Of a stretch of 64,000 nt of DNA, positions 4,105 to 60,028 are shown piece after piece. The stretch is from Paludisphaera mucosa. Its GTDB lineage: Bacteria > Planctomycetota > Planctomycetia > Isosphaerales > Isosphaeraceae. How positions within the stretch are numbered: the first letter of the stretch is position 1; every line of letters begins with the position of its first letter. A program made the translations under genes and the position numbers. The notes below the pieces were generated by a model that was not told where the DNA came from, did no database searches, and worked only from the letters and a program-made list of their open reading frames with translations. The stretch is taken from positions 1,736,001 to 1,800,000 of the forward strand of contig NZ_JARRAG010000002.1 of the NCBI RefSeq assembly GCF_029589435.1, in the 5' to 3' direction.

Positions 4105-4168
4105 TTTAGTGAAGAATTTAACTATGTTTTTGGATGTGGCTTTCGCCGAGATCTTGAAGCGCGCTTCG

Positions 4169-4179
4169 GTGTCGTCGCC
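4169..4179. repeat. 11-bp target duplication (GTGTCGTCGCC), left copy
   Basis: GTGTCGTCGCC occurs at 4169-4179, again between the two IS4 copies at 5717-5727, and again after the second at 7265-7275. All three copies are identical and abut the IS ends. An 11-bp duplication fits the IS4 family. Confidence 0.9.
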
Positions 4180-5716
4180 GAATGGCACTTAGATTTTGCT
4201 AGCTCGTTTGAGCATATGGAGTTTGATCTCCCTTCGCGGCCGCTTCAATTCCTCATACCCTCTCGGCCCCTTCCTGGTCATGCGGGGCTCGAACCGGTCG
4301 GGCCGGTCGGCCACGCGATGCACGGCGATGGCCCCGAGCAGTTGCTCGTAGAGTTCCTCTTGGTCGTCCGCACCGCTGTGCGCCCGGTAGGCGATCAGCG
4401 GCCGGAACGCTTCGAGAACCTGGAGCGTCGCTTTGAAGCTGATCGAGCGAGGTTCCACATTTTCGATGGTCGCCGCCTGTGCCATCACCGTGCGGATCAG
4501 GTTGTACGCCAGGACGTGGGCCCAGATCTCCTTGCGCACCAGCTCCGGCGTCTTGCACCGCAAAACATCCATCTGCAAGGTGATTTTGATCGAACGCAAA
4601 TCCAACTCGTTGTTCCACCTGGCCCGGTAGAGCGAAGCCAGCTCCTCCGCACTCGCCAGCCCGGGGTCCAGGATGGTCGTCACGACGACGACCGACCGCG
4701 TCCGGAACCCGGGCTGCACTACGCGGAAGCGAACCTCGCGGACGGTGATCGCCTCGGGCAGCGCGTTGTACGTCGCCCGGTCCACCGAGCGGATCGACGA
4801 CGGCTTCTTCCACACGACCACGTGATCGTCCTTGCCCAGGCGGGTCCCCTTGCGGAAGTCGGCCCGGCGGTGCGCCGACAGGCGGCTGACGGTGTCGACC
4901 CCGCGTTGCTTGAGCAGGTACATTCCGACCCAGCCCGACATCAGGCGGTCGCCCAGCAGCACGTCGCCGGGGCGGAGCACGTCCCACAGCTGGCGCAGCA
5001 GGCTGACCTCGCCCTGGCCCTTGCCGGCGTAGCGGCAGACGCCCAGGTCGAGGATCGCGCCGCAGGACAGCGAGATGATCGCCCCGATCCGGGCGGGGGC
5101 GAAGCTCGTCCCGGGCACTTGGTTGTAGGCCAGAGGGTATTCCCGGCGGTTCTCCGGGGTGTCGGGCATGGAGACCGTCGAGCCGTCGAACAGGCAGACG
5201 CGGCGGCCCTTCCAAAGCCACTGCGGGTCGACTCGCGCGTCCAGGTTCCGCCCCACGAGGCGGGCCACGGCGGCGAAGAACCGCTCGGGCAGGCGCTTCC
5301 GCGCCTGGCAATACGCCCCCGTCTCGGAGCTGCACGGCTCGAGCCCCTGTGAGACCCGGTGGGCGATCAGCCGCGCGACGGCGGCGCGGCAGGACTGGTC
5401 GGCGTTGAGCACCTGTCCGATGAACACCCAGAGGGTTACCAACGGGGCGTAGATGCGGTCATTCCAGGTCGCCTCGATCTCACGGAGGGCCTCCTCGAGG
5501 CCGCTGGCGGATAGGACGTCGGCGAAGGGGAGTCCGCCTTCCTGGACGAACTGTTGGCGGAGGAGGTCGATCTGATGCCGAAGACGTCCCTGCGCGTAGT
5601 TGAACATCAATCTGGCTCCGAGCCGGTGAGGGTTGTACGCCCTCATCAGAGCCAGAATGCCCGTGGCTTCCTATCCTGCGGCGGGGGAACCGTTTGTGAA
5701 AATCTAAGTGCCATTC
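4180..5716 (-). mobile_element. IS4-family element, copy 1 (1537 bp)
   Basis: The element starts GAATGGCACTTAGATTTT and ends with its inverse (AAAATCTAAGTGCCATTC), an 18-bp terminal inverted repeat. It carries one transposase gene on the minus strand. It is followed, after the shared 11-bp duplication, by an identical copy in the same orientation. The pair sits inside the 3' end of recombinase element copy I. Confidence 0.95.
4189..5646 (-). CDS. IS4-family transposase (copy 1)
   Basis: A 485-residue DDE transposase. The first Asp is in LFDGSTVSMPD (about residue 152), the second in LLGDRLMSG (about residue 231), and the Glu is in YRARWNNELDLRSIK (about residues 323-337). That last segment matches the IS4-family Y-(2)-R-(3)-E-(6)-K signature exactly. 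It catalyses cut-and-paste transposition of its own element. The start codon lies about 70 bp inside the element end. The protein is identical to copies 2 and 3, so transposition or recombination here is recent. The gene is intact and probably functional. Confidence 0.95.
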   Translation of the reverse strand: MRAYNPHRLGARLMFNYAQGRLRHQIDLLRQQFVQEGGLPFADVLSASGLEEALREIEATWNDRIYAPLVTLWVFIGQVLNADQSCRAAVARLIAHRVSQGLEPCSSETGAYCQARKRLPERFFAAVARLVGRNLDARVDPQWLWKGRRVCLFDGSTVSMPDTPENRREYPLAYNQVPGTSFAPARIGAIISLSCGAILDLGVCRYAGKGQGEVSLLRQLWDVLRPGDVLLGDRLMSGWVGMYLLKQRGVDTVSRLSAHRRADFRKGTRLGKDDHVVVWKKPSSIRSVDRATYNALPEAITVREVRFRVVQPGFRTRSVVVVTTILDPGLASAEELASLYRARWNNELDLRSIKITLQMDVLRCKTPELVRKEIWAHVLAYNLIRTVMAQAATIENVEPRSISFKATLQVLEAFRPLIAYRAHSGADDQEELYEQLLGAIAVHRVADRPDRFEPRMTRKGPRGYEELKRPRREIKLHMLKRASKI

Positions 5717-5727
5717 GTGTCGTCGCC
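5717..5727. repeat. 11-bp target duplication between tandem IS4 copies
   Basis: GTGTCGTCGCC, identical to 4169-4179 and 7265-7275. It is the only sequence between the two tandem elements. Confidence 0.9.
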
Positions 5728-7264
5728 GAATGGCACTTAGATTTTGCTAGCTCGTTTGAGCATATGGAGTTTGATCTCCCTTCGCGGCCGCTTCAATTCC
5801 TCATACCCTCTCGGCCCCTTCCTGGTCATGCGGGGCTCGAACCGGTCGGGCCGGTCGGCCACGCGATGCACGGCGATGGCCCCGAGCAGTTGCTCGTAGA
5901 GTTCCTCTTGGTCGTCCGCACCGCTGTGCGCCCGGTAGGCGATCAGCGGCCGGAACGCTTCGAGAACCTGGAGCGTCGCTTTGAAGCTGATCGAGCGAGG
6001 TTCCACATTTTCGATGGTCGCCGCCTGTGCCATCACCGTGCGGATCAGGTTGTACGCCAGGACGTGGGCCCAGATCTCCTTGCGCACCAGCTCCGGCGTC
6101 TTGCACCGCAAAACATCCATCTGCAAGGTGATTTTGATCGAACGCAAATCCAACTCGTTGTTCCACCTGGCCCGGTAGAGCGAAGCCAGCTCCTCCGCAC
6201 TCGCCAGCCCGGGGTCCAGGATGGTCGTCACGACGACGACCGACCGCGTCCGGAACCCGGGCTGCACTACGCGGAAGCGAACCTCGCGGACGGTGATCGC
6301 CTCGGGCAGCGCGTTGTACGTCGCCCGGTCCACCGAGCGGATCGACGACGGCTTCTTCCACACGACCACGTGATCGTCCTTGCCCAGGCGGGTCCCCTTG
6401 CGGAAGTCGGCCCGGCGGTGCGCCGACAGGCGGCTGACGGTGTCGACCCCGCGTTGCTTGAGCAGGTACATTCCGACCCAGCCCGACATCAGGCGGTCGC
6501 CCAGCAGCACGTCGCCGGGGCGGAGCACGTCCCACAGCTGGCGCAGCAGGCTGACCTCGCCCTGGCCCTTGCCGGCGTAGCGGCAGACGCCCAGGTCGAG
6601 GATCGCGCCGCAGGACAGCGAGATGATCGCCCCGATCCGGGCGGGGGCGAAGCTCGTCCCGGGCACTTGGTTGTAGGCCAGAGGGTATTCCCGGCGGTTC
6701 TCCGGGGTGTCGGGCATGGAGACCGTCGAGCCGTCGAACAGGCAGACGCGGCGGCCCTTCCAAAGCCACTGCGGGTCGACTCGCGCGTCCAGGTTCCGCC
6801 CCACGAGGCGGGCCACGGCGGCGAAGAACCGCTCGGGCAGGCGCTTCCGCGCCTGGCAATACGCCCCCGTCTCGGAGCTGCACGGCTCGAGCCCCTGTGA
6901 GACCCGGTGGGCGATCAGCCGCGCGACGGCGGCGCGGCAGGACTGGTCGGCGTTGAGCACCTGTCCGATGAACACCCAGAGGGTTACCAACGGGGCGTAG
7001 ATGCGGTCATTCCAGGTCGCCTCGATCTCACGGAGGGCCTCCTCGAGGCCGCTGGCGGATAGGACGTCGGCGAAGGGGAGTCCGCCTTCCTGGACGAACT
7101 GTTGGCGGAGGAGGTCGATCTGATGCCGAAGACGTCCCTGCGCGTAGTTGAACATCAATCTGGCTCCGAGCCGGTGAGGGTTGTACGCCCTCATCAGAGC
7201 CAGAATGCCCGTGGCTTCCTATCCTGCGGCGGGGGAACCGTTTGTGAAAATCTAAGTGCCATTC
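5728..7264 (-). mobile_element. IS4-family element, copy 2 (1537 bp)
   Basis: Same ends, length and orientation as copy 1, from which I can see no difference. It is bounded by the 11-bp duplications at 5717-5727 and 7265-7275. The tandem TSD-IS-TSD-IS-TSD arrangement is unusual and could also be an assembly artefact. Confidence 0.92.
5737..7194 (-). CDS. IS4-family transposase (copy 2)
   Basis: A 485-residue DDE transposase identical to copy 1, with the same acidic triad and Y-(2)-R-(3)-E-(6)-K motif. It is intact and oriented like copy 1. Two active identical copies in tandem can act as substrates for composite transposition or for deletion by recombination. Confidence 0.95.
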   Translation of the reverse strand: MRAYNPHRLGARLMFNYAQGRLRHQIDLLRQQFVQEGGLPFADVLSASGLEEALREIEATWNDRIYAPLVTLWVFIGQVLNADQSCRAAVARLIAHRVSQGLEPCSSETGAYCQARKRLPERFFAAVARLVGRNLDARVDPQWLWKGRRVCLFDGSTVSMPDTPENRREYPLAYNQVPGTSFAPARIGAIISLSCGAILDLGVCRYAGKGQGEVSLLRQLWDVLRPGDVLLGDRLMSGWVGMYLLKQRGVDTVSRLSAHRRADFRKGTRLGKDDHVVVWKKPSSIRSVDRATYNALPEAITVREVRFRVVQPGFRTRSVVVVTTILDPGLASAEELASLYRARWNNELDLRSIKITLQMDVLRCKTPELVRKEIWAHVLAYNLIRTVMAQAATIENVEPRSISFKATLQVLEAFRPLIAYRAHSGADDQEELYEQLLGAIAVHRVADRPDRFEPRMTRKGPRGYEELKRPRREIKLHMLKRASKI

Positions 7265-7275
7265 GTGTCGTCGCC
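7265..7275. repeat. 11-bp target duplication, right copy
   Basis: GTGTCGTCGCC directly after the right end of IS4 copy 2. It lies inside the original end region of recombinase element copy I, which fixes the insertion point of the IS pair. Confidence 0.9.
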
Positions 7276-7279
7276 CGCT

Positions 7280-8326
7280 TCAGCCGGCATCGGCGTATCT
7301 CCGTCGGCAGCAAGGGCACTCGCTGCCGCTGCCCTTCACCAGTGCATGGAAGGCAGTCGGCTGCGGCAGCGACTTGATGGCCCGGAACGCCAGAGGTGCC
7401 CGGTGGGCGTAATGGCGATAGGTGATCCCGCCGATCGAGTGGCCCAGGATCTCCACCGACGACTCCGGCACGTTCTCGTCGTGGTACGTCGCGCAGGTCT
7501 TTCGGAGGTCCTTCAGCTCCCAAGACTCCTCCCGACCGGTCTCGATATCCAGCCTGGGTTTGATGCCGGCGAGCGAACAGAGCGACTGGAACCGGGAGTT
7601 CGGGCGGGCCCCGCCGCCGAGGAAGACCCGAGAGTCGGGTCGCGGGTCGGCCGGCATGATGTCCCGGAGGTGAGCGTGGACCACCCGGTTCATCGGGCGA
7701 TGGAACGCCTTGCCCGTCTTCACCCGCCGGTAGAACAGCCAGCCCCACGGCGACCGCTCCTTGACCTCGCGGTCGGGCGAGGGCCGTTCCCACGAGACGT
7801 GCCGCCAGAGCATGGGCTCGTGGGACGGCGTCGATTCCCAGACGGTCCCTGTGTCCACGCCGTAGTTGAAGAACAGGACCAAGGCGGAGCGCCAGTACCG
7901 GCCGATCGGCAGCGGGGCGTCCCAGCCGCGAGGCCGCGACATTGCGTGGGTGGCGAAGTAGAGGGCGTTGATCTCGGCCTTGGTCAGGTAGTGGCGGCCG
8001 GCGACGTCGCGCTGGTCCCTGGGACCGGGGAATCGCGGCGGCGCCTCGATCAACTCCTGCTCCCAGGCCCAGGAGAGCACGGCCCTGAGGTGCTCGCGGG
8101 CCTTGTTTGCGGTACGACCCGGGTTGGTCCCCTCGTCACTGACGGCCTGCTCGTGGACCCAGTCGAGGAACTCGCGGACGTCCTTGCGCCTCAGCTGCTC
8201 GATCGGCCCCGCGCCGCCCCACCGCTCCCACTTCCGGATGGTCGAGGCGTACTCGTTGCGCGTCCCGCGGGATAAGCCCTTGGCGCGGGCATAGCTCTCG
8301 GCCGCCGACTTGAACGTCGTCGACAT
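7280..8326 (-). CDS. Tyrosine recombinase of element copy I
   Basis: A 348-residue protein starting at ATG 8326. The N-terminal half (about 1-110) is a SAM-like core-binding domain (STIRKWERWG, REFLDWVHEQ). The C-terminal half is the catalytic domain. It has a Lys in YRRVKTGKAF, an Arg in ELKDLRKTCATY, a His in EILGHSIGG and the Tyr nucleophile in TYRHYAHRA. The usual first catalytic Arg is not evident: its region reads NYGVDTGTVWES. The His of the HxxR box is replaced by Lys (KDLR). The C-terminus has a CPCC motif that may bind metal. The protein is identical to that of copy II. It presumably mobilises its 1255-bp element, but activity is unproven given the altered residues. Confidence 0.82.
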   Translation of the reverse strand: MSTTFKSAAESYARAKGLSRGTRNEYASTIRKWERWGGAGPIEQLRRKDVREFLDWVHEQAVSDEGTNPGRTANKAREHLRAVLSWAWEQELIEAPPRFPGPRDQRDVAGRHYLTKAEINALYFATHAMSRPRGWDAPLPIGRYWRSALVLFFNYGVDTGTVWESTPSHEPMLWRHVSWERPSPDREVKERSPWGWLFYRRVKTGKAFHRPMNRVVHAHLRDIMPADPRPDSRVFLGGGARPNSRFQSLCSLAGIKPRLDIETGREESWELKDLRKTCATYHDENVPESSVEILGHSIGGITYRHYAHRAPLAFRAIKSLPQPTAFHALVKGSGSECPCCRRRYADAG

Positions 8327-8497
8327 TCCTCGGCCCCCATCCATGAGGTCCGTTCGCCGAACGGGGAATCTCACGATCACGTAAGTTCCAGACCTCTGAA
8401 TCGGGCGATGGCGTATGGAACGATCGTGAAAATCGCCGCGAGGGCAACCGAGCCTGCAGAAGGTTCCTGCTGGGGCGAGTTGCACGAGGACACGGCC

Positions 8498-8512
8498 TGG
8501 CGGACCGACGCG
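8498..8512 (-). repeat. Variant of recurrent 15-mer CGCTTCGGTCCGCCA
   Basis: On the minus strand this reads CGCGTCGGTCCGCCA, one mismatch from the exact copies at 12096-12110 (-), 30423-30437 (+) and 57566-57580 (+). It forms the 5' end of recombinase element copy I, so the motif may be an end or recombination site of that element. Confidence 0.55.
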
Positions 8513-13295: not shown

Positions 13296-16200
13296 TTAGC
13301 GCACAACTTCGTCTTTTAAGGCGGCCCGCAACAGCATCCGGGGCGTAGCAGTACGGTTTTCGACTTGGCCGTTCCGGAGAATGGAGACCTCCGCCCCTTG
13401 ATCCCAGTTCTCTTCCGAACGGAGGCGCGAGACGAGCTTCGAGACGATGTCCAAATTCTCGTTCTTGTAGGAGAGCAAGGCGTCCTGGAACCTCAGGCCG
13501 AAGGCCTCGTCTCGTTCGTCGGGAACACTGATGACCACGATCCGGGTCGGAAGCTCGCGGTCCATTGCGTCGAGGCACGTCGCTTTCACGCGGGTCCCCC
13601 GATCGTCATAGGCGTAGACGGCCCTCGAATAACCCCAGAAGGAATGCACCACCCGCTTGCCTTCGGGGTCGAAGTACGCCTCCTCAACCTGATTCCCGCG
13701 GCGGTCATACGCGCGGGTGTTGCTCGCTACGCCGCCGGCATTCGGTGAGCGCTCGCCGTCTACCCCGTAGGAATCCTCCCGGGTGATGTTCCCCCAGGTA
13801 TCGTACTCATACTTGACCATCGCGTTGCCGTGGAGCCGGTGCCTGGCGGGCTGCCCCGCCGGGTCGAAATAGCGTATCTGTAGGACCCGGCCGTGGGCGT
13901 CGTAGGTCGACTCCGACCTTGCGACCTCAATCCCGTTGTGGCTAACCAGCCCGTTCGGGCCCCAGTACGCTTCCTCGGTGACGTTCCCGTGGTCGTCGTA
14001 CGCCTTGGAGAGCTTGATATACCCGCCGGGGCAGGGCATCGGCCTCCGCAGGACATCCAGGTACGACTGGGAGGTCGTGTTTCCGCGCTCGTCGAAGGTC
14101 TCGACGACTACGGCCACTCCTTCGGTAAGATTGATGACCGGCCTTTCATCTGCCCCGAGATAGGTCAGCTCGACCGCGTTGCACCGCGCGTCGTACGCCG
14201 CGGCGATCGCTGCAATCCCGTCGGCCGACGGGGTGAGCTTTTCTTCCTTGTCAAAGTTCCGAACCTTCGTGGTATTCCCTCTCGAATCGAATTCCTTCTG
14301 GATCCGGTGGACCGGGGCGTAGCTCGACTTGATACCGCTGGTGATGGTCGGGAGGCCCTCCGTGTCCCAGAAGGCATCTTGGATCGGGTTGGATTGGTTG
14401 TCGTAAACCCATGTTTCGCTCGCGTACCCGTCGTTCAGCAGGGTCGGTCGGCCTTTCGTGTCCAGATAGAGTTCCTTGATCACGTTCCCGCGTGAGTCGT
14501 TAGTCGACCGGATGCCGGCGTACCCGTCGGAGTGCAGCACCGGTTCGCCGCCCACCCCCAGGTAATCCGTCGCGAGGATGTTGCCGCGGTTGTTGAACGA
14601 CCGCGTGCATCTGGCGTAGCCCCGCTTCCCCAGGGTCGGACGCCCGGACGCGTCGAAGTATGCCTCGACGAGCGCGTTGCCCCGGTTGTCGAATTCCCAC
14701 CGGATCTCGTGGAAGCCCTCGGCAACGATCGTCGGCGAGCCGCCGGCGTCGAAGTAGGATTCGCCCGTCCGATTGCCCCGCTCGTCGAACGTGGACCGCA
14801 TCTCGTGGACTCCCTCCTTGCGGGCCATCGCTCTTCCGTCCGTATCAAAATACGTTTCATTGATCACGTCACCCCTCGCGTTGTGGCGAGCGCGGAGCGT
14901 GGCGTACCCGTTGTTGTGGCGAGCCGGCCGGCCATCGGCGCCGAAGTACGCCTCCTCGACCCGGTTCCCCCTCGCGTCGAACTTGCACTCGATCCTCGCG
15001 TAGCCGTCCTTGCTCGCCGTCGCGCGTCCGCGCTCGTCTAGGTACGATTCCGACACGCGGTTGCCGCGGTTGTCGTAGGTTCGCGCCACGCTCGCGTAGC
15101 CGTTGCGGTGTTGCGTCGGCCGGTCCTTCACGTCGAGATAGGTCTCGGCGACGACCTTGTTGTCCTGGCTGTACGTGTACGTCACCTTGGCGTAACCGTC
15201 CTTGTTCGGCGTCGGGCGGTCGTCGGGGCCGGAGAACGCCATCCAGGCCTGATTACCCCGGCCGTCGTAGCCGCAGGTCAGGCTCGCCATGCCCGACTTC
15301 TGGACCGCCCGATTCCCGTGTACGTCGAAATACTCCTCTTTTTTCATGTTGCCGCGTTCGTCATACGTGTGGGCCAGCTTGGTGAATCCGAACTGATCGA
15401 GGGCCGGCTTCCCTTCGGCGTCGAAGCACGTCCCGCTGGTCTCGTAGCCCCGGTCGTCGTGGACCAGCTCCACGCGGGCGTAGCCGTGCTTCTGGACGAT
15501 GGGCTTCTCGTCGACGCCGAGGTAATCCTCGGTTCGGACCTCGCCCCAGTCGTCGAGTGTCAGCCGCCTGACGGCGTATCCGTCTGCGTTGAGGGCCCGC
15601 CGGCCCTCCGCGTCGAAGAACGCTTCTTCGACCAGGTTGCCCCACTTATCGCGAGTCCATGTGAACCGCGCATACCCCGCCTTGTGCGTAGCGGGTCGAT
15701 CCGCCTCGTCCAGTAACGAGACCGAGGTGTTCTGGCCGAGCGCGTCGTAGGTGAACCTCCTCTTGACGTACCCGTCGCGGCAGCACACCGGATTCCCGGT
15801 CTCGTCGAGGAAGGTCGCCTCCGTGACCTGCCCGGAGGCGTCCAGGACGTAGGAGAGCCCGAACACCCCGTTCGAGTCCGTCTGCGGCGCCCCGTCTCGG
15901 TCCACGAACCGGACCTCGTTCGCGAACCCCTCGTCCGTCAACGAAAAGACGACGGCCGCCGCCCCCGACCCCAGCCGCGCGCGGGGGAACCCGGCCGAGT
16001 CCGTGTACAGGCCGGTCGTCGGCGGGATGTTTGTGTAGCGCAGCGACCAGACGACCTCCCCCATCCGGTCTCGGGCGGACTCCTCGACCAGAAATCTTCG
16101 CTGGTCATACATGTAGTGGTATTTGCATTCGAGCTTATTGGTGACCCCGTCGGTCGGCGGCTGGAGGATGGCATTCACGCCGTGGTTGATCGTCAACTTG

Positions 16201-17222
16201 CCGTGACCGCTGACGATCTCGACGTCCTCGACCAGGCCGTTCCTGGAGATGAACTTATAGGAAGCCGCCCGGGCCTGAGCCTGCCTCGGGCTCAGGGGCC
16301 CGATGCCGACGGGGACGCCGTACCGCTTGACGACGCTGGCAAAGTACTCGACCTCCTCCTCGCCGCGGTCGCGTTCATACTGTCGCCTGTTGCGCTCGAT
16401 CTCCCGGCGCGTCGCCGCGCCATCGCGGGCCTGCTTCTCCGAGCCGCCCGCGGGAGGGGCAGCCGGGACGGCGAGCAGGTCCTGATACACCTGGAACAGC
16501 GGGTCCTTCGCGGGCTCTCGCAGCATGACGGCTCGCCAGGGCACCGCCCAGCCGATGTTCTTTTCGTCCATTCCGCCGTCGACGACCGCGACCACCCGGT
16601 TGAGGCTGTCGAGGACGGGGGCTCCTGAGTGGCCGGGAAAGACATTGCCATGGATGGGCAGCATCAGGACGTTCAGCCCCGGTGTCTTCCGCACCTTGAA
16701 GCCGTCCCGGAGGTCCTCATTGATCAGCCTAGTCAGCGGGAACAGAGGCCCTTCAGGCCCCTTTTCGACGTTGACGTCGTCCGGCGTCGGCCGTGGGACC
16801 CCTTTGGGATGGCCGATGAAGGTGAGCTTTTCCCCCCGGAGTGCCTCCCAGTCGACGTCTGTCGCCTGCTCGAACCCCTGGGCGTCCAGCCCCGAGAACT
16901 CGGGAGACGAGAGCACCGCGACGTCGCTGGCCACGTCAACCTGGACAATCGTCAGCGGTTTGGTGAGCTTCGCCCCCTTTTCCGAGACGGCCTCGATCGT
17001 CGCGTCGGAGACCAGGACGCCGTGGAGCGCCGTGACGATGCCGCGGATATGGCGCAGCCGGAATCCCGTCTGCGTGGCGACGATGCGAGGCTCCTCCTTG
17101 CTCGGGTCCTTCTGCTTGACCGTGACGAAGTAGATGAATTCGTTCTGGGCGTGCGCCGGTCCGGCCGCGCCAAGGATCGAGAGGGCCCCCAGAATTAGGG
17201 CGAGCGCCGGTTGCCTGGACAT
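13296..17222 (-). CDS. Secreted trypsin-like protease with about 22 YD-type repeats and a C-terminal PDZ domain
   Basis: From ATG 17222 (GAGG six bases upstream) the protein has about 1308 residues and begins with a signal peptide ending in AGPAHAQ. A trypsin-like domain follows, with His in VTALHGV, Asp in VDVASDVAVL and Ser in FPGHSGAPVLD, a complete catalytic triad. From about residue 470 to 1200 there are about 22 copies of a 32-residue repeat of the form GYA-x6-YDxRGNxxEExYFDxxGRP. These resemble RHS/YD repeats. The C-terminal 80 residues (FGLRFQDALLSY, GAEVSILRNGQ) look like a PDZ domain. Thus an HtrA-like protease-PDZ protein has a long repeat stalk inserted. It is the last gene of the inhibitor/papain/trypsin operon, 48-80 bp after the papain gene. 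The substrate is unknown. Confidence 0.85.
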   Translation of the reverse strand: MSRQPALALILGALSILGAAGPAHAQNEFIYFVTVKQKDPSKEEPRIVATQTGFRLRHIRGIVTALHGVLVSDATIEAVSEKGAKLTKPLTIVQVDVASDVAVLSSPEFSGLDAQGFEQATDVDWEALRGEKLTFIGHPKGVPRPTPDDVNVEKGPEGPLFPLTRLINEDLRDGFKVRKTPGLNVLMLPIHGNVFPGHSGAPVLDSLNRVVAVVDGGMDEKNIGWAVPWRAVMLREPAKDPLFQVYQDLLAVPAAPPAGGSEKQARDGAATRREIERNRRQYERDRGEEEVEYFASVVKRYGVPVGIGPLSPRQAQARAASYKFISRNGLVEDVEIVSGHGKLTINHGVNAILQPPTDGVTNKLECKYHYMYDQRRFLVEESARDRMGEVVWSLRYTNIPPTTGLYTDSAGFPRARLGSGAAAVVFSLTDEGFANEVRFVDRDGAPQTDSNGVFGLSYVLDASGQVTEATFLDETGNPVCCRDGYVKRRFTYDALGQNTSVSLLDEADRPATHKAGYARFTWTRDKWGNLVEEAFFDAEGRRALNADGYAVRRLTLDDWGEVRTEDYLGVDEKPIVQKHGYARVELVHDDRGYETSGTCFDAEGKPALDQFGFTKLAHTYDERGNMKKEEYFDVHGNRAVQKSGMASLTCGYDGRGNQAWMAFSGPDDRPTPNKDGYAKVTYTYSQDNKVVAETYLDVKDRPTQHRNGYASVARTYDNRGNRVSESYLDERGRATASKDGYARIECKFDARGNRVEEAYFGADGRPARHNNGYATLRARHNARGDVINETYFDTDGRAMARKEGVHEMRSTFDERGNRTGESYFDAGGSPTIVAEGFHEIRWEFDNRGNALVEAYFDASGRPTLGKRGYARCTRSFNNRGNILATDYLGVGGEPVLHSDGYAGIRSTNDSRGNVIKELYLDTKGRPTLLNDGYASETWVYDNQSNPIQDAFWDTEGLPTITSGIKSSYAPVHRIQKEFDSRGNTTKVRNFDKEEKLTPSADGIAAIAAAYDARCNAVELTYLGADERPVINLTEGVAVVVETFDERGNTTSQSYLDVLRRPMPCPGGYIKLSKAYDDHGNVTEEAYWGPNGLVSHNGIEVARSESTYDAHGRVLQIRYFDPAGQPARHRLHGNAMVKYEYDTWGNITREDSYGVDGERSPNAGGVASNTRAYDRRGNQVEEAYFDPEGKRVVHSFWGYSRAVYAYDDRGTRVKATCLDAMDRELPTRIVVISVPDERDEAFGLRFQDALLSYKNENLDIVSKLVSRLRSEENWDQGAEVSILRNGQVENRTATPRMLLRAALKDEVVR

Positions 17223-17300
17223 TTTCGGCCTCAAGAGATGTTGCCCATTCATCGCGCCCCGGACGTGGCCACCCCGACCCCGGCCTGCCGCCCGGACCGG

Positions 17301-18434
17301 TTACTGCTGGGCCTGCGCCCTGACCCAGGCGGCGGCGTACCCGACGTTGTTGCAGTCGAAATCGATCCACATGTAGCCGCCGGAGCCCCAGTCGGAGCCC
17401 CAGGAGTTCTTGATCAGCCAGGCACGCCTGGCGTCGTCCCAGCCGACGATCGTCACGGCGTGGTTCACGTTGGCGTTCACGTCCGTCCGGTCGCTCACGA
17501 CCTTGGTCTTGAACACCCCGGCCCCGGCGTAGGCCAGGAAAGCCTCGTCGACATACACCGCGACGGAGAGCGGGCCGTACTGGCACAAGGCCTCCTTGAT
17601 CGCCTCGCGGTCCGGGATGGGCTTGCCGCTATCGACCAGCCCGAACGCCTCGACCTTGTAGGGCGTCGGCACCGAGCCGCCGCACGCGCCGACGACGCCC
17701 TTGTAGGGCACGGTGTCCTCGGTCGCGGTGCCGCCGGCCTTCATGAACTGCCACGCCGTCCAGTACCAGTCCCCGTCGCACCCGCCAGTCTTGCCGCAAT
17801 CCAGGATGTGCTGCTCGGACGCATCGACCTTGTCGTTGCTCTCGCGGGTCCGCAGGATGCGGCTGCTCTCGAAGGCGGCGGTAGCCGCGAAGCACCAGCA
17901 CGAGCCACAGCTCCCCTGGCCCGTGTTCTGAAGGTACGGGCGCACGGGAGTCACTGCGTTCGCGGTCCGCCAGTCGAAGGACCTGGCCTTGGGGTCGGGC
18001 TTGGTCCCGAGTTCCTCGGGGGCGATTTTCGGCTCGATCTTGCCCTGCTGGAGGAAATCCTTCGGAATCCGCAGGCCGGTGACCTGACGGACCGCGAATT
18101 CGAACGCCTTCCTTTCCAGTCGGAACCGTTCCTCCTCGGTCGGCTTCGCGGGGTCGGCATAGAGGGCGTGGCTCGTGAGCTTGAAGTTATTCTTGAGCGT
18201 GATCACAGACTGGAAGACTTTATTGAACCGGACTTCGAACCGCGCGTTCGACCGCTGGAGTTCGTCCCGGAGCCGGTCGAACTCGTCGAGCGCCTGCGCG
18301 GCCGCGTCCTCCTGGGCCCCCTGCGTATTCGGCCCGGCCTCGCCGCCCGGGGTGATCGTCCCGATGACGGCGATCCCCGCCAGGGCGGCGAACGCGATCC
18401 CCGGGGTTACGAGCGTTCGGAGTGTTTTCCTCAT
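17301..18434 (-). CDS. Secreted papain-family (C1A) cysteine peptidase
   Basis: A 377-residue protein with an N-terminal signal or anchor ([18 protein letters not shown]) and a charged helical propeptide-like region (about 45-150). The mature peptidase domain follows. The active-site Cys is in [12 protein letters not shown] (about residue 180), the His in [11 protein letters not shown] (about 320) and the Asn in [15 protein letters not shown] (about 340). Further Cys pairs suggest disulfides and export. The gene lies between a chagasin-like inhibitor of this same peptidase class (upstream) and a trypsin-like protease (downstream), all on one strand with short gaps, so co-expression is likely. 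The role may be extracellular or periplasmic protein degradation. Confidence 0.93.
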
Positions 18435-18557
18435 GACCGTCTCTTGTCCTGGGAGAATTGGGAGCCCGCCCGTACGCGTCCGGCGGAACGACTCGATGCG
18501 GAAAGCTGGGCGGTCGCCCCGGCGCGACCCAACATGAGATCGGCGGCGCAGGACGTA

Positions 18558-19385
18558 CTACCTCGCCAGTTCGATGTGCAGGCGCAGGTCCTTCGGGTCC
18601 GGATTGCCGAAGGGTCGCGCGAGCTGGAAATCGAGGTCTCCTTCGTCGAGCACCTGAAAACGGAACACCTTGTACTCCCGTCCGCCGGGCTTCTTGTCCT
18701 GACTCTCCGTCGTGACTTCCCCATCGGGCTTCAGCCGATTCGGGTCGTGATTCTTGAGCTTCCAGGTGTATCCCGTGGCCTTCAATTCCAGCCGGACTTC
18801 GAGCAGGTCTCCCTTCGCGGCCGTCCCCTCCAGCCGGGTGCGGCTCTGCGTGAGCTGGCTCTGGTCGACGGTGATCCGCACGATTGCCAGTTCGATGTGC
18901 AGGCGCAGGTCCTTCGGGTCCGGATTGCCGAAGGGTCGCGCGAGCTGGAAATCGAGGTCTCCTTCGTCGAGCACCTGAAAACGGAACACCTTGTACTCCC
19001 GTCCGCCGGGCTTCTTGTCCTGACTCTCCGTCGTGACTTCCCCATCGGGCTTCAGCCGATTCGGGTCGTGATTCTTGAGCTTCCAGGTGTATCCCGTGGC
19101 CTTCAATTCCAGCCGGACTTCGAGCAGGTCTCCCTTCGCGGCCGTCCCCTCCAGCCGGGTGCGGCTCTGCGTGAGCTGGCTCTGGTCGACGGTGATCCGC
19201 ACGACTTGGCCCCCGTCGCGAACCGGCGGGACGACGGCCGCAATGACACATATGAAGACTGCGGAAGCGGTCGCGAGTCTCCGCCGGGAGGGAGGCCGGT
19301 CCCGCTCGCGAATACGTCCGTGGAGCCGGGGTGTGATTCCGCAGCTGGCCGGATCTCCGGCCGCGACCGCGTTCGACCGACACAT
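18558..19385 (-). CDS. Tandem-domain chagasin-like (I42) cysteine-protease inhibitor
   Basis: A 275-residue exported protein starting at ATG 19385, with AGGAG eight bases upstream. A signal or anchor segment (ASAVFICVIAAVVPPV) precedes two 107-residue domains whose sequences are identical. Each has the three inhibitory loops of the chagasin/ICP family in altered form: LKATGYTW for NPTTGYxW, KPGGREYKVFRF for the GxGG loop, and LARPFG for the RPW/F loop. Chagasin-type proteins block papain-like peptidases, and the next gene encodes one, so self-protection or activity control is inferred. The two domains come from a perfect 321-bp in-frame tandem duplication. An assembly collapse or expansion error at this repeat should be kept in mind. 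Confidence 0.8.
   Translation of the reverse strand: MCRSNAVAAGDPASCGITPRLHGRIRERDRPPSRRRLATASAVFICVIAAVVPPVRDGGQVVRITVDQSQLTQSRTRLEGTAAKGDLLEVRLELKATGYTWKLKNHDPNRLKPDGEVTTESQDKKPGGREYKVFRFQVLDEGDLDFQLARPFGNPDPKDLRLHIELAIVRITVDQSQLTQSRTRLEGTAAKGDLLEVRLELKATGYTWKLKNHDPNRLKPDGEVTTESQDKKPGGREYKVFRFQVLDEGDLDFQLARPFGNPDPKDLRLHIELAR
18565..19204 (-). repeat. Perfect 321-bp tandem duplication inside the inhibitor gene
   Basis: The unit 18565-18883 recurs at 18886-19204 with an offset of exactly 321 bp and no mismatch I can see. 321 is divisible by three, so the frame is kept and each unit encodes one whole inhibitor domain. The absence of silent changes means the duplication is very recent or is being homogenised. 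Confidence 0.92.
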
Positions 19386-19572
19386 GTCGGGGTACTCCTT
19401 GGATCGCGGGACGCCGGGTCACCGGGCCGTCTGTCAGGAATCGCCGGAAGCTGCGCTATCCCGATACCTCTCAACAAATCTCCTGTGATCCCTCCGGAAG
19501 GAGAAGCACCGCAGCGGCCAGTCGCCTCATCTTCGAAGGCCAGTACCATCATGTCAAGGATCGGGAAAAGGC

Positions 19573-20025
19573 TCACGAGGCCGGGCGGGTGCCCGCCCCC
19601 ATGCGGAAGCAGATGACGCCGACAGCGAGTGTCGTCCAGGCGTCGATGATCGTCCCCGGGGGGGCGTAACGCACCCGCAGCCGGCGCAGCCCCTTCAACC
19701 AGCTGATCGTCCGCTCCACGACCCACCGGACCTTCCCCAGCCCGATGCCGTGCGGCGTCCCCCCTTGGCGATGTGCGGATCGGCCCAAGCCAGCGTAGCA
19801 ACGCCCACGTCCCCTCGCTGTCATACCCGCGATCGGCGTACAGCTCGTCGGGCAATTCCTTCGGCCGGCCCAGCGTCCCCTTTACCCGGGGGAAGTCGAG
19901 CACCACGGGCAGGACCTGGCGGTGGTCGCTGGCGTCCGCCCCGGCCCTGCGAATCGCCAGTGGCACCCCGTGGCAGTCGACCAAGGGAGTGTACTTCGTG
20001 CCGGATTTGCTGAGGTCTGGCGGAC
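19573..20025 (-). pseudogene. IS5-type transposase fragment, cut by IS4 copy 3
   Basis: Minus-strand sequence reads GPPDLSKSGTKYTPLVDCHG, then ELPDELYADRGYDSEGTWAL. After a frame change near 19785 it continues GLGKVRWVVERTISWLKGLR and ends VICFRMGAGTRPAS. These are typical C-terminal blocks of IS5-group DDE transposases: the DRGYDS Asp and the ERTISWLKGLRR Glu region. The 5' part is interrupted at 20026 by IS4 copy 3, whose 11-bp flank GTCTGGCGGAC reappears inverted at 57573-57583. Re-joining 57566-57583 to this fragment restores the GPPDLSK codons. So this gene was hit by IS4 and then separated by the 36-kb inversion. Confidence 0.8.
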
Positions 20026-21562
20026 GAATGGCACTTAGATTTTCACAAACGGTTCCCCCGCCGCAGGATAGGAAGCCACGGGCATTCTGGCTCTGATGAG
20101 GGCGTACAACCCTCACCGGCTCGGAGCCAGATTGATGTTCAACTACGCGCAGGGACGTCTTCGGCATCAGATCGACCTCCTCCGCCAACAGTTCGTCCAG
20201 GAAGGCGGACTCCCCTTCGCCGACGTCCTATCCGCCAGCGGCCTCGAGGAGGCCCTCCGTGAGATCGAGGCGACCTGGAATGACCGCATCTACGCCCCGT
20301 TGGTAACCCTCTGGGTGTTCATCGGACAGGTGCTCAACGCCGACCAGTCCTGCCGCGCCGCCGTCGCGCGGCTGATCGCCCACCGGGTCTCACAGGGGCT
20401 CGAGCCGTGCAGCTCCGAGACGGGGGCGTATTGCCAGGCGCGGAAGCGCCTGCCCGAGCGGTTCTTCGCCGCCGTGGCCCGCCTCGTGGGGCGGAACCTG
20501 GACGCGCGAGTCGACCCGCAGTGGCTTTGGAAGGGCCGCCGCGTCTGCCTGTTCGACGGCTCGACGGTCTCCATGCCCGACACCCCGGAGAACCGCCGGG
20601 AATACCCTCTGGCCTACAACCAAGTGCCCGGGACGAGCTTCGCCCCCGCCCGGATCGGGGCGATCATCTCGCTGTCCTGCGGCGCGATCCTCGACCTGGG
20701 CGTCTGCCGCTACGCCGGCAAGGGCCAGGGCGAGGTCAGCCTGCTGCGCCAGCTGTGGGACGTGCTCCGCCCCGGCGACGTGCTGCTGGGCGACCGCCTG
20801 ATGTCGGGCTGGGTCGGAATGTACCTGCTCAAGCAACGCGGGGTCGACACCGTCAGCCGCCTGTCGGCGCACCGCCGGGCCGACTTCCGCAAGGGGACCC
20901 GCCTGGGCAAGGACGATCACGTGGTCGTGTGGAAGAAGCCGTCGTCGATCCGCTCGGTGGACCGGGCGACGTACAACGCGCTGCCCGAGGCGATCACCGT
21001 CCGCGAGGTTCGCTTCCGCGTAGTGCAGCCCGGGTTCCGGACGCGGTCGGTCGTCGTCGTGACGACCATCCTGGACCCCGGGCTGGCGAGTGCGGAGGAG
21101 CTGGCTTCGCTCTACCGGGCCAGGTGGAACAACGAGTTGGATTTGCGTTCGATCAAAATCACCTTGCAGATGGATGTTTTGCGGTGCAAGACGCCGGAGC
21201 TGGTGCGCAAGGAGATCTGGGCCCACGTCCTGGCGTACAACCTGATCCGCACGGTGATGGCACAGGCGGCGACCATCGAAAATGTGGAACCTCGCTCGAT
21301 CAGCTTCAAAGCGACGCTCCAGGTTCTCGAAGCGTTCCGGCCGCTGATCGCCTACCGGGCGCACAGCGGTGCGGACGACCAAGAGGAACTCTACGAGCAA
21401 CTGCTCGGGGCCATCGCCGTGCATCGCGTGGCCGACCGGCCCGACCGGTTCGAGCCCCGCATGACCAGGAAGGGGCCGAGAGGGTATGAGGAATTGAAGC
21501 GGCCGCGAAGGGAGATCAAACTCCATATGCTCAAACGAGCTAGCAAAATCTAAGTGCCATTC
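20026..21562 (+). mobile_element. IS4-family element, copy 3 (1537 bp), flanks not matching
   Basis: Same 18-bp TIRs and length as copies 1 and 2, but on the plus strand. The left flank is GTCTGGCGGAC (20015-20025) and the right flank is GTCGACCACAC (21563-21573); they do not match. Each is the reverse complement of one flank of copy 4, so this is a recombinant junction of an inversion. Confidence 0.95.
20096..21553 (+). CDS. IS4-family transposase (copy 3)
   Basis: A 485-residue DDE transposase identical in sequence to copies 1 and 2, with the YRARWNNELDLRSIK signature. It is intact. Its orientation is opposite to the other three copies, making it the partner for inversions within this window. 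Confidence 0.95.
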   Translation: MRAYNPHRLGARLMFNYAQGRLRHQIDLLRQQFVQEGGLPFADVLSASGLEEALREIEATWNDRIYAPLVTLWVFIGQVLNADQSCRAAVARLIAHRVSQGLEPCSSETGAYCQARKRLPERFFAAVARLVGRNLDARVDPQWLWKGRRVCLFDGSTVSMPDTPENRREYPLAYNQVPGTSFAPARIGAIISLSCGAILDLGVCRYAGKGQGEVSLLRQLWDVLRPGDVLLGDRLMSGWVGMYLLKQRGVDTVSRLSAHRRADFRKGTRLGKDDHVVVWKKPSSIRSVDRATYNALPEAITVREVRFRVVQPGFRTRSVVVVTTILDPGLASAEELASLYRARWNNELDLRSIKITLQMDVLRCKTPELVRKEIWAHVLAYNLIRTVMAQAATIENVEPRSISFKATLQVLEAFRPLIAYRAHSGADDQEELYEQLLGAIAVHRVADRPDRFEPRMTRKGPRGYEELKRPRREIKLHMLKRASKI

Positions 21563-21608
21563 GTCGACCACACCGACGCAGGCTGCGTCGACACGCGATC
21601 GAAGCGGG

Positions 21609-30422: not shown

Positions 30423-30437
30423 CGCTTCGGTCCGCCA
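30423..30437 (+). repeat. Exact copy of recurrent 15-mer CGCTTCGGTCCGCCA
   Basis: Forms the 5' terminus of recombinase element copy II; the match to 57566 extends to 16 bases. See also 12096-12110 and the variant at 8498-8512. Confidence 0.6.
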
Positions 30438-30608
30438 GGCCGTGTCCTCGTGCAACTCGCCCCAGCAGGAACCTTCTGCAGGCTCGGTTGCCCTCGCGGC
30501 GATTTTCACGATCGTTCCATACGCCATCGCCCGATTCAGAGGTCTGGAACTTACGTGATCGTGAGATTCCCCGTTCGGCGAACGGACCTCATGGATGGGG
30601 GCCGAGGA

Positions 30609-31655
30609 ATGTCGACGACGTTCAAGTCGGCGGCCGAGAGCTATGCCCGCGCCAAGGGCTTATCCCGCGGGACGCGCAACGAGTACGCCTCGACCATCCG
30701 GAAGTGGGAGCGGTGGGGCGGCGCGGGGCCGATCGAGCAGCTGAGGCGCAAGGACGTCCGCGAGTTCCTCGACTGGGTCCACGAGCAGGCCGTCAGTGAC
30801 GAGGGGACCAACCCGGGTCGTACCGCAAACAAGGCCCGCGAGCACCTCAGGGCCGTGCTCTCCTGGGCCTGGGAGCAGGAGTTGATCGAGGCGCCGCCGC
30901 GATTCCCCGGTCCCAGGGACCAGCGCGACGTCGCCGGCCGCCACTACCTGACCAAGGCCGAGATCAACGCCCTCTACTTCGCCACCCACGCAATGTCGCG
31001 GCCTCGCGGCTGGGACGCCCCGCTGCCGATCGGCCGGTACTGGCGCTCCGCCTTGGTCCTGTTCTTCAACTACGGCGTGGACACAGGGACCGTCTGGGAA
31101 TCGACGCCGTCCCACGAGCCCATGCTCTGGCGGCACGTCTCGTGGGAACGGCCCTCGCCCGACCGCGAGGTCAAGGAGCGGTCGCCGTGGGGCTGGCTGT
31201 TCTACCGGCGGGTGAAGACGGGCAAGGCGTTCCATCGCCCGATGAACCGGGTGGTCCACGCTCACCTCCGGGACATCATGCCGGCCGACCCGCGACCCGA
31301 CTCTCGGGTCTTCCTCGGCGGCGGGGCCCGCCCGAACTCCCGGTTCCAGTCGCTCTGTTCGCTCGCCGGCATCAAACCCAGGCTGGATATCGAGACCGGT
31401 CGGGAGGAGTCTTGGGAGCTGAAGGACCTCCGAAAGACCTGCGCGACGTACCACGACGAGAACGTGCCGGAGTCGTCGGTGGAGATCCTGGGCCACTCGA
31501 TCGGCGGGATCACCTATCGCCATTACGCCCACCGGGCACCTCTGGCGTTCCGGGCCATCAAGTCGCTGCCGCAGCCGACTGCCTTCCATGCACTGGTGAA
31601 GGGCAGCGGCAGCGAGTGCCCTTGCTGCCGACGGAGATACGCCGATGCCGGCTGA
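30609..31655 (+). CDS. Tyrosine recombinase of element copy II
   Basis: A 348-residue protein identical to the copy I enzyme. It has an N-terminal core-binding domain, then a catalytic domain with Lys (RRVKTGKAF), Arg (LKDLRKTC), His (LGHSIGG) and Tyr (TYRHYAHRA). The first catalytic Arg is not evident in NYGVDTGTVWES. The start is ATG 30609; an in-frame ATG at 30591 is possible. The 185 bp before the start and the 20 bp after the stop are part of the repeated unit, so the element is a single-gene mobile unit. It is intact, unlike copy I, which carries IS4 insertions downstream of its gene. Confidence 0.82.
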   Translation: MSTTFKSAAESYARAKGLSRGTRNEYASTIRKWERWGGAGPIEQLRRKDVREFLDWVHEQAVSDEGTNPGRTANKAREHLRAVLSWAWEQELIEAPPRFPGPRDQRDVAGRHYLTKAEINALYFATHAMSRPRGWDAPLPIGRYWRSALVLFFNYGVDTGTVWESTPSHEPMLWRHVSWERPSPDREVKERSPWGWLFYRRVKTGKAFHRPMNRVVHAHLRDIMPADPRPDSRVFLGGGARPNSRFQSLCSLAGIKPRLDIETGREESWELKDLRKTCATYHDENVPESSVEILGHSIGGITYRHYAHRAPLAFRAIKSLPQPTAFHALVKGSGSECPCCRRRYADAG

Positions 31656-31828
31656 AGCGGGCGACCTCACCGAAGCGTTCTAGCGTCCGGCAGCTCAGGC
31701 CATCCGGCTCTCGGTCAAACGTCCTCTTCCGCACGGCTACAGGCTGCGTGGACAAAGCGAAAGGATGAGGCGGGTGCTCAGCTGATAATACAGGGATTAA
31801 TCCCGCGACCATCAACCGCTCGCAAGGG

Positions 31829-57461: not shown

Positions 57462-57565
57462 CTCCGACCGGCCGCTTGAAGCGGCGGGTGCACTGGCACT
57501 GGTCCGAAAAGCCGGCGCGCGGTGCCCCCAGCGGCAGCTCGGTCGCCACGGCTTGAAGCCAGCAG

Positions 57566-57583
57566 CGCTTCGGTCCGCCAGAC
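57566..57583 (+). other. 15-mer motif and severed IS5 segment at the inversion breakpoint
   Basis: CGCTTCGGTCCGCCAGAC contains an exact copy of the recurrent 15-mer and ends in the 11-bp IS4 target GTCCGCCAGAC. Read as TTC GGT CCG CCA GAC (57569-57583) it continues in frame into the minus-strand IS5 fragment at 20014 and below, so these bases were next to that fragment before the inversion. Upstream, an in-frame TGA at 57554-57556 shows the IS5 gene was already truncated. Confidence 0.65.
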
Positions 57584-59120
57584 GAATGGCACTTAGATTT
57601 TGCTAGCTCGTTTGAGCATATGGAGTTTGATCTCCCTTCGCGGCCGCTTCAATTCCTCATACCCTCTCGGCCCCTTCCTGGTCATGCGGGGCTCGAACCG
57701 GTCGGGCCGGTCGGCCACGCGATGCACGGCGATGGCCCCGAGCAGTTGCTCGTAGAGTTCCTCTTGGTCGTCCGCGCCGCAGTGCGCCCGGTAGGCGATC
57801 AGCGGCCGGAACGCTTCGAGGATCTGGAGCGCCGCTTTGAAGCTGATCGAGCGAGGTTCCACATTTTCGATGGTCGCCGCCTGGGCCATCACCGTGCGGA
57901 TCAGGTTGTACGCCAGGACGTGGGCCCAGATCTCCTTGCGCACCAGCTCCGGCGTCTTGCACCGCAAAACATCCATCTGCAAGGTGATTTTGATCGAACG
58001 CAAATCCAACTCGTTGTTCCACCTGGCCCGGTAGAGCGAAGCCAGCTCCTCCGCACTCGCCAGCCCGGGGTCCAGGATGGTCGTCACGACGACGACCGAC
58101 CGCGTCCGGAACCCGGGCTGCACTACGCGGAAGCGAACCTCGCGGACGGTGATCGCCTCGGGCAGCGCGTTGTACGTCGCCCGGTCCACCGAGCGGATCG
58201 ACGACGGCTTCTTCCACACGACCACGTGATCGTCCTTGCCCAGGCGGGTCCCCTTGCGGAAGTCGGCCCGGCGGTGCGCCGACAGGCGGCTGACGGTGTC
58301 GACCCCGCGTTGCTTGAGCAGGTACATTCCGACCCAGCCCGACATCAGGCGGTCGCCCAGCAGCACGTCGCCGGGGCGGAGCACGTCCCACAGCTGGCGC
58401 AGCAGGCTGACCTCGCCCTGGCCCTTGCCGGCGTAGCGGCAGACGCCCAGGTCGAGGATCGCGCCGCAGGACAGCGAGATGATCGCCCCGATCCGGGCGG
58501 GGGCGAAGCTCGTCCCGGGCACTTGGTTGTAGGCCAGAGGGTATTCCCGGCGGTTCTCCGGGGTGTCGGGCATGGAGACCGTCGAGCCGTCGAACAGGCA
58601 GACGCGGCGGCCCTTCCAAAGCCACTGCGGGTCGACTCGCGCGTCCAGGTTCCGCCCCACGAGGCGGGCCACGGCGGCGAAGAACCGCTCGGGCAGGCGC
58701 TTCCGCGCCTGGCAATACGCCCCCGTCTCGGAGCTGCACGGCTCGAGCCCCTGTGAGACCCGGTGGGCGATCAGCCGCGCGACGGCGGCGCGGCAGGACT
58801 GGTCGGCGTTGAGCACCTGTCCGATGAACACCCAGAGGGTTACCAACGGGGCGTAGATGCGGTCATTCCAGGTCGCCTCGATCTCACGGAGGGCCTCCTC
58901 GAGGCCGCTGGCGGATAGGACGTCGGCGAAGGGGAGTCCGCCTTCCTGGACGAACTGTTGGCGGAGGAGGTCGATCTGATGCCGAAGACGTCCCTGCGCG
59001 TAGTTGAACATCAATCTGGCTCCGAGCCGGTGAGGGTTGTACGCCCTCATCAGAGCCAGAATGCCCGTGGCTTCCTATCCTGCGGCGGGGGAACCGTTTG
59101 TGAAAATCTAAGTGCCATTC
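57584..59120 (-). mobile_element. IS4-family element, copy 4 (1537 bp), flanks not matching
   Basis: Same TIRs, length and orientation as copies 1 and 2. Flanks GTCCGCCAGAC (57573-57583) and GTGTGGTCGAC (59121-59131) differ, and each is the reverse complement of a flank of copy 3. Compared with copy 1 it has six substitutions, all between 57776 and 57884. Confidence 0.95.
57593..59050 (-). CDS. IS4-family transposase (copy 4)
   Basis: A 485-residue DDE transposase with the same catalytic residues as the other copies. It differs in a short C-terminal stretch: ALQILEAFRPLIAYRAHCGAD here against TLQVLEAFRPLIAYRAHSGAD in the others. The gene is intact. The clustered changes suggest a conversion tract from a slightly different family member elsewhere in the genome. 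Confidence 0.94.
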   Translation of the reverse strand: MRAYNPHRLGARLMFNYAQGRLRHQIDLLRQQFVQEGGLPFADVLSASGLEEALREIEATWNDRIYAPLVTLWVFIGQVLNADQSCRAAVARLIAHRVSQGLEPCSSETGAYCQARKRLPERFFAAVARLVGRNLDARVDPQWLWKGRRVCLFDGSTVSMPDTPENRREYPLAYNQVPGTSFAPARIGAIISLSCGAILDLGVCRYAGKGQGEVSLLRQLWDVLRPGDVLLGDRLMSGWVGMYLLKQRGVDTVSRLSAHRRADFRKGTRLGKDDHVVVWKKPSSIRSVDRATYNALPEAITVREVRFRVVQPGFRTRSVVVVTTILDPGLASAEELASLYRARWNNELDLRSIKITLQMDVLRCKTPELVRKEIWAHVLAYNLIRTVMAQAATIENVEPRSISFKAALQILEAFRPLIAYRAHCGADDQEELYEQLLGAIAVHRVADRPDRFEPRMTRKGPRGYEELKRPRREIKLHMLKRASKI

Positions 59121-60028
59121 GTGTGGTCGACCGAGGTTTCACTCGGGACGGGGAGCGTGGACCGACCTGGCCAATTCCATGCCTGCGGTTCTTTCGTAGA
59201 GGGGGAGGACCCGGTGGAGTTGGGCCTGTTGCGCCTCGTTCCTCATGGGGCTCGTGAGTGCAGGTCAGTCGAGCCGGGCGGAGCCCAGGCCGTCTAGGTG
59301 CGTGGCCTTACTGTCGTCCGGTCATGCCGCTCCGCGCATCTGCCAGTTGGGAACTTCCGGTAGCTCGCCGGATCCTTGGCGACCGCCCGCTTCGTTCGGC
59401 AGAACCAGCCAGTCTACCGCTGAATGGGGGGCGGCCGAGGGCCCTGCGGTTCTCGTGGTCGCCCATGTTCGATGATCGTTCGCTTGCGGCGAGGCGGACT
59501 GGATCGCCGAATCTATACCGGGGAGGCCTCGTTGGTGGCCTTATGGGGGTTTTGAGGGTGGTCGACCCGGCCGCCGGCCCCTCGAATTGCCAGATCGACA
59601 ACCCGGGGACGAGTGCCACGACCCCCACGCCGACACCTTCTCGGCCGCGGCGGGACCAGGGCACGGGAGGCCGGCCCTCCGGGTCTTCCTTGATAGGAGC
59701 GTGCTCCACCCTCAGCGCTCGCCCCGGCCTCGGGGTCCATAGTCCGCACGGAGCTTTCTCCCCGCCACCGACGAACCGCACGCCACGCAGGAGGCGGATA
59801 CGTCAAGGCCGGGGACCTGCATAACCTTCAAAAGCCTCGCGGACCTCGCCCCCTCCCGAGCGTCCGAGGGGGGCGAGCGGCGTCTCGCGGCGGACCGGGC
59901 GTCGGCCGGCCTCGTCTGCTTAATTCCCGCGGATATCGCGTCATAGACGCATGTCGAAGCTCCTAGCCCTCGCCCTCTGGGCGAGCCGATCCGGCGTCTT
60001 GCTCCACTGACTTCGAGAGGAAAAACTT
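59121..60028. other. Long region without a convincing gene
   Basis: About 900 bp between IS4 copy 4 and the DUF1257 gene. Open frames exist on both strands (for example 59258-59824) but show no domain and look like GC-driven shadows. Before the inversion its left edge adjoined the region downstream of the LacI-type gene. It contains one strong hairpin (59845-59877). The promoter for the DUF1257 operon should lie at its right end. Confidence 0.45.
59845..59877 (+). terminator. Strong GC-rich hairpin
   Basis: CTCGCCCCCTC (59845-59855) pairs with GAGGGGGGCGAG (59866-59877) with one bulged base and a 10-nt loop. There is no T-run after it, so a classical terminator is uncertain. It could end a lost upstream transcript or act in the leader of the DUF1257 operon 150 bp downstream. 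Confidence 0.35.

Follow-up and report, generated by a model that had tools for sequence, protein, structure and literature searches.

Why should a planctomycete carry the gene for a cysteine protease inhibitor directly beside genes for a papain and a second protease? Three consecutive genes raise this question in a 64,000-nucleotide stretch of Paludisphaera mucosa DNA, here called the window. An earlier note, made from the sequence alone, described them as a double chagasin, a papain and a trypsin-like protein with a YD stalk and a PDZ domain. The chagasin-type (I42) protein is favoured as a cognate inhibitor by its place next to the papain, its single copy, the recurrence of the pair and a fusion of the two, and we consider it likely that it protects the cell from its own papain.

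Gene layout and genomic setting

The three genes follow one another on the minus strand exactly where the earlier note placed them (19385-18558, 18434-17301 and 17252-13296). Gaps of 123 bases (I42 to papain) and 48 bases (papain to trypsin/repeat) separate them. The features of the locus are as follows:

18558..19385, minus strand: gene for the tandem I42 protein, 275 aa (Pfam PF09394, E 2.7e-21, two stretches)
18886..19204, minus strand: first I42 unit (exact 319-base repeat; loops placed by alignment A1)
18565..18883, minus strand: second I42 unit, same as the first (319/319 bases identical at offset 321)
17301..18434, minus strand: gene for the C1A papain, 377 aa (Pfam PF00112, E 2.2e-45; catalytic residues; PDB relatives)
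13296..17252, minus strand: gene for the trypsin-like/repeat protein, 1318 aa (Pfam PF13365, E 3.1e-9; self-match; residues)
20014..21574, plus strand: IS4-family insertion sequence directly upstream of the operon (NCBIfam transpos_IS4_1, E 2.1e-62; inverted repeats)
19560..20013, minus strand: upstream of the I42 gene, a decayed reading that resembles a transposase (frames read; IS5-type by eye only)

An AAGGAG ribosome-binding motif precedes the ATG of the I42 gene. All three proteins begin with a hydrophobic stretch close to the N-terminus; in the I42 protein it lies behind an unusually long lead of 37 aa. The earlier note called all three exported; the stretches bear this out as far as they go, and export is probable on their account.

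A Pfam search of the 8.2 Mb Paludisphaera genome finds a single I42 gene, with two domains, and a single C1 gene adjacent to it. Four near-identical copies of the IS4-family element lie in the window (4163-5718, 5717-7266, 20024-21579 and 57552-59134; identity 98.9-100%). A 1.24 kb integrase-gene stretch (7270-8512) recurs inverted at 30423-31665 with 99.9% identity, and these inverted copies flank the operon and could allow inversion. I42 is missing from the five congeners searched, and their C1 matches are at best weak (in G004 and G005). No clean empty site is seen in G003, where 19 kb around PEPC share PEPC alone with the window, or in G005, where the sequence reaches 1.7 kb upstream of PEPC. 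Given the IS copies and repeats around it and the five congeners that lack I42 and a strong C1 match, the cassette was probably acquired or often lost.

The tandem chagasin protein

The double chagasin is borne out by profile search. The Pfam I42 model scores 76.1 bits against a cut-off of 27.2, in two stretches, which places the protein in the family. Searched against the PDB, profile A1 matches P. aeruginosa ICP and chagasin first; the window I42 as a single sequence retrieves no chagasin from the PDB with phmmer. The L6 loop reads RPF and fits the RPW/F motif, and L4 reads PGG against a GxGG motif (both motifs described for chagasin in PMC2607524, cited in part). L2 is KATGY, one residue shorter than NPTTGY, with TGY and the W kept, and the exact NPTTG motif is absent there (KATG in alignment A1). 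Because many Pfam-found rows of A1 likewise lack an exact NPTTG, this motif does not decide membership, and the window inhibitor is filed on its profile match as a divergent I42.

The two units arise from a tandem duplication of 321 bases that is exact and keeps the reading frame. Their identity may reflect a recent duplication, ongoing conversion or an assembly artefact. That the assembly doubled a gene with one true domain would fit the perfect agreement of the units over 319/319 bases, but another tandem I42 protein, in G173 (L108 169-1776), has similar, non-identical copies; tandem I42 arrays therefore occur, and we regard the artefact as unlikely. G173 itself gives no C1 match in a Pfam C1 search of 392 phylum genomes.

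The papain

The identification of the second gene as a papain also stands. Its Pfam match (E 2.2e-45) and the Gln-Cys-His-Asn set, recognized by motif as Q173, C179, H325 and N343, place it in C1A, and its PDB relatives are procathepsin K, cathepsin L and papain. An N-terminal pro-like region is plausible because the alignment to procathepsin K begins at residue 68. In the papain tree, the window sequence belongs to a 12-member group whose branch has support 85/87 and is not starred; the tree gives no firm order within it. Nine of the 12 rows have an adjoining I42 (eight loci and the second G014 papain); G144a, G162a and G162b have none beside them.

The trypsin-like repeat protein

The third protein is assigned to the trypsin-like proteases by Pfam Trypsin_2 (PF13365, E 3.1e-9) and by H77, D110 and S209, located by motif. 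A self-match reveals repeats with a 32-aa period after this domain. The proposed YD stalk survives in part: the repeats are real and, judged by sequence, RHS/YD-like, but their profile matches stay under the cut-offs (RHS_repeat of Pfam, 18.6 bits against 22; TIGR01643, 14.8 against 15.8). The PDZ domain is not supported: Pfam returns nothing up to E 10 for the last 110 aa, and the last 120 aa find no PDZ chain among PDB sequences. A GLRFQDALLSY stretch is PDZ-like by eye only. For residues 270-1318, the structure model is too poor to use (pLDDT 33).

Relatives of this protein are few. Of 40 relatives, one has a partial match (128 aa), and repeat-region matches occur in four of 392 phylum genomes besides its own, with at most two candidates scored per genome. 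The best relative, in G223, shares mainly repeats at 24-31% identity, with a short 38% match at 299-353. The trypsin/repeat protein is to all appearances a local addition. An anti-phage role was considered and rejected: the PADLOC match of its trypsin-like part (RT-Protease_XI, 4.9e-9) is read as general trypsin homology, and PADLOC reports nothing up to E 0.01 for the I42 protein and the papain.

I42-papain linkage within the family

PF00112 matches 17 of the 45 genomes in the window's family. A gap divides the C1 matches into eight strong loci in seven genomes (E <= 3e-35) and 15 weak loci (E >= 1.8e-16); this division, like the other cut-offs, was fixed after the hits were seen. In all seven genomes with a strong C1A papain, an I42 or I42-like gene lies beside it. 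Pfam alone sees I42 in two of the seven, the window and G014, which are also its only I42 matches in the family. Custom profiles recover six, and the seventh, G022, is assigned on a modest structure model. G028, one of 40 relatives searched and outside the family, has a Pfam I42 and no C1 match.

The custom I42 model was built from 31 Pfam-found domains and run on six frames of the papain neighbourhoods. Beside the papain, its seeds score 5e-38 (window) and 4.1e-24 (G014, fused), and the non-seeds 3e-7 (G017), 2.2e-6 (G009), 4.9e-6 (G041) and a weak 0.013 (G057), with the best reversed-sequence control at 0.52. The G009 and G057 I42 domains score below the Pfam cut-off. When divergent rows are added, all six fall below 1e-13 because those rows are included in the model. 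An ORF occupies the same place in G022 (L029 10234-10764) and is found by neither the Pfam nor the custom I42 models. Its structure model (pLDDT 61, from an alignment that included I42 rows) has chagasin/ICP as all of its first 11 PDB hits.

Across the 45 family genomes, profile A1 finds I42 in six, each with a strong C1A neighbour, at up to 117 candidates scored per genome; the profile contained divergent I42 rows from beside papains, which favours recovery of just those. Its other family match is a single weak, ImmA/IrrE-linked one in G041. Co-occurrence of I42 and C1A in the family has a hypergeometric p of 8.6e-7 with kinship ignored; the genomes are related, so this and the other p-values are too small. 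The distances of I42 are correlated with those of C1: r is 0.55 at n=10 (permutation p 0.003) and 0.43 at n=7 (p 0.026).

The earlier note gave weight to the inhibitor coming first and proposed a search for conserved synteny of all three genes. Inhibitor-first order is no rule: in five of the seven family genomes (G009, G017, G041, G057 and G022) the I42 gene follows the papain downstream on the same strand, in one it is fused to it, and in the window only is it upstream. In the family, synteny is conserved for the I42/C1A pair; for the three-gene set it is not supported, as the third protein has partial relatives only and a crude motif scan sees no serine protease in the vicinity of 10 further I42-C1 loci.

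The G014 fusion (L025 7372-8907, plus strand) carries its I42 domain C-terminally, and in its papain part the catalytic Cys is replaced by Asp (GCGSDWAF); it is followed by a paralogue that is very similar but intact. Alignment A2 of this fusion places I42-only rows on the papain domain. The family's weak-type C1 loci number 15, several of them on short contigs; I42-like domains occur at two, both in ImmA/IrrE fusions. These ImmA/IrrE-like proteins (L047 3646-4662, plus strand, in G041; L048 5631-6647, minus strand, in G043) have the I42-like domain at the C-terminus and lie near a weak-type C1. L047 matches Peptidase_M78 at 6e-11 and I42 at 20.2 bits, below cut-off, and L048 is I42-like by custom profile and by near-identity to L047. 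At L027, L029 and L039, long Q-rich and PKD-like secreted proteins, alike between genomes as judged by eye, lie near the papain-I42 pair; a Q-rich one at L027 has a weak thioredoxin match.

Beyond the family

In 392 phylum genomes, Pfam finds C1 matches in 83 and I42 matches in 33. C1 at E < 1e-24 is present at 15 loci in 10 genomes. I42 adjoins three of these 15 (the window; G380, upstream; G221, downstream), which outside the family amounts to two of 14 strong loci, several of them on contigs that end within a few kb, where neighbours may be cut off. Because only three of the 33 I42 genomes are among the 10 with a strong C1A (p 0.043, kinship ignored), I42 in the phylum would mostly have other partners or roles. 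A weak-type C1 has a convergent I42 in G304. A MAG contig (L024 7626-10669, plus strand) has a papain, an I42 and a caspase-domain gene in a row; it is the one relative found in a named genome collection by a search confined to close relatives.

Cystatin (PF00031) is present in five of the 392 phylum genomes, and four of the five belong to the set of 10 that carry a strong C1A (p 1.1e-6, kinship ignored), although never on the contig that holds the strong C1A gene. Directly behind the G162b papain, after 10 bases and on the same strand, comes a tandem-cystatin gene (L087 4505-5458, minus strand) with two cystatin stretches at 26.9 bits against a cut-off of 22.2. A motif scan sees no other cystatin-like gene in the papain neighbourhoods. 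I42 or cystatin is found by search in seven of the 10 strong-C1A genomes (p 3.7e-6, kinship ignored), or eight when G162 is included; G119 and G370 have a strong C1A and neither inhibitor.

A probable cognate inhibitor and its alternatives

A cell with a cognate chagasin would secrete its papain-like peptidase and export the dedicated inhibitor alongside it. The three chagasin loops would enter the active-site cleft of any papain that is active too early or misplaced, in the periplasm or at the cell surface. The cell would thereby be spared, and papain beyond the reach of the inhibitor would digest protein food or competitors. That this I42 binds this papain, and where each acts, are predictions of the model. 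Tandem duplication might raise the inhibitor dose or allow two enzymes to be bound at once.

The third gene invites a different account, a three-step cascade like that of S. aureus sspABC, in which I42 would restrain pro-papain until the trypsin-like protein activates it. Such activation is possible by analogy to SspA and SspB. The cascade is consistent with three closely spaced genes on one strand, with catalytic residues in both proteases, with the plausible pro-like region and with the existence of a described operon of such make-up (PMC3454333, in part). Both the crude scan of the 10 other I42-C1 loci and the partial relatives of the third protein argue against it. No promoter-like site is found (0, with 0.7 the mean for shuffled sequence), and terminator-like sites are about as many as chance gives (5, with 4.3 for shuffled sequence), so that co-transcription is neither shown nor excluded. 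On balance we find the full cascade doubtful.

Alternatively, I42 could defend against foreign papains of predatory protists, hosts or competitors, and its adjacency to a papain would then mark an attack-and-defence island. Tomato proteases are inhibited by Cip1 of P. syringae, and C1A is absent from most Pseudomonas genomes (PMC5014320, in part). A strong C1A is also missing from 30 of the 33 phylum genomes that have I42. Yet in the A1 search, with its 117 candidates at most per genome, every family genome found to have I42 has a C1A neighbour to it, and the fusion in G014 joins the two outright, which makes foreign defence an improbable reading. Chance could have brought two secreted gene types together in an IS-rich, recently rearranged region, as the four IS4 copies and the 19 kb of G003 that match the window in PEPC only might suggest. 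The same neighbours recur in six other family genomes and in G380, G221 and L024, and coincidence is accordingly very hard to credit.

A cognate inhibitor would bear on an old proposal. Chagasins were called natural inhibitors of prokaryotic C1 proteases in 2009, in a paper that allowed for action on either the bacteria's own or host proteases and noted that tests existed only with a eukaryotic enzyme (PMC2784779, in part). With its single-copy chagasin next to the only C1 gene of the genome, the locus offers a clean pair on which to test this long-standing idea. What seems new is the chagasin as gene-pair partner of a papain in a protease-inhibitor role. At the level of titles and abstract openings, the literature searched does not name a bacterial C1A-I42 gene pair, and the portion of PMC10380794 consulted does not mention chagasin.

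More speculatively, and with less expectation that it will hold, the data hint at a transferable bacterial papain module that usually travels with an inhibitor of exchangeable fold: chagasin in the window's family, tandem cystatin at G162b (one case) and, in G014, a dead papain-chagasin fusion beside an active papain, perhaps a decoy-like inhibitor. If so, self-protection would be an original job of bacterial chagasins, and some bacterial cystatins would gain an endogenous target. Bacterial cystatins were considered unlikely to regulate the bacteria's own proteases (PMC2784779, in part), a view that the G162b papain-cystatin pair, if confirmed, would contradict.

Comparison with known systems

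The earlier note knew of no described system with this set, which is too strong a statement. The sspABC genes of Staphylococcus aureus resemble it, as one operon encodes a serine protease (SspA), a cysteine protease (SspB, staphopain) and an inhibitor of that cysteine protease (SspC, staphostatin), and SspA activates SspB (PMC3454333, in part). Staphopain belongs to family C47, however, and staphostatin is lipocalin-like, not I42 (PMC2873492, in part); the window inhibitor is an I42 and not a staphostatin, which sets the locus outside sspABC. It also comes first, with its own N-terminal hydrophobic stretch, and long repeats are attached to the window's serine protease.

In SpeB-Spi and in Bfp-Bfi of Bacteroides fragilis, a cysteine protease gene likewise adjoins an inhibitor gene, and in both the two are co-transcribed. 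Bfi is predicted to act in the periplasm or membranes, and two Bfp genes sit on mobile elements (PMC2873492, in part). Those proteases are C10 enzymes, in contrast to the window's papain, and in place of a chagasin they have Spi, which resembles a propeptide, or Bfi, which resembles staphostatin and is predicted to inhibit.

The papain itself shares with family C1A the Pfam match, the catalytic Gln, Cys, His and Asn, and cathepsin and papain relatives in the PDB, but belongs to a group of bacterial sequences that have a pro-like region of their own and an I42 link in 9/12 tree rows. Compared with T. cruzi chagasin, P. aeruginosa ICP and Cip1, the inhibitor is of the same I42 family by profile, with an L6 that fits and an L4 that resembles the family motif; it differs in being tandem, in its shortened L2 loop and in lying beside a papain gene. 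No such I42-papain pair appears in the parts of the chagasin-family literature consulted for comparison (e.g., PMC2607524). On the best reading, I42 would act on the papain by analogy as staphostatin, Spi and probably Bfi act on other bacterial cysteine proteases.
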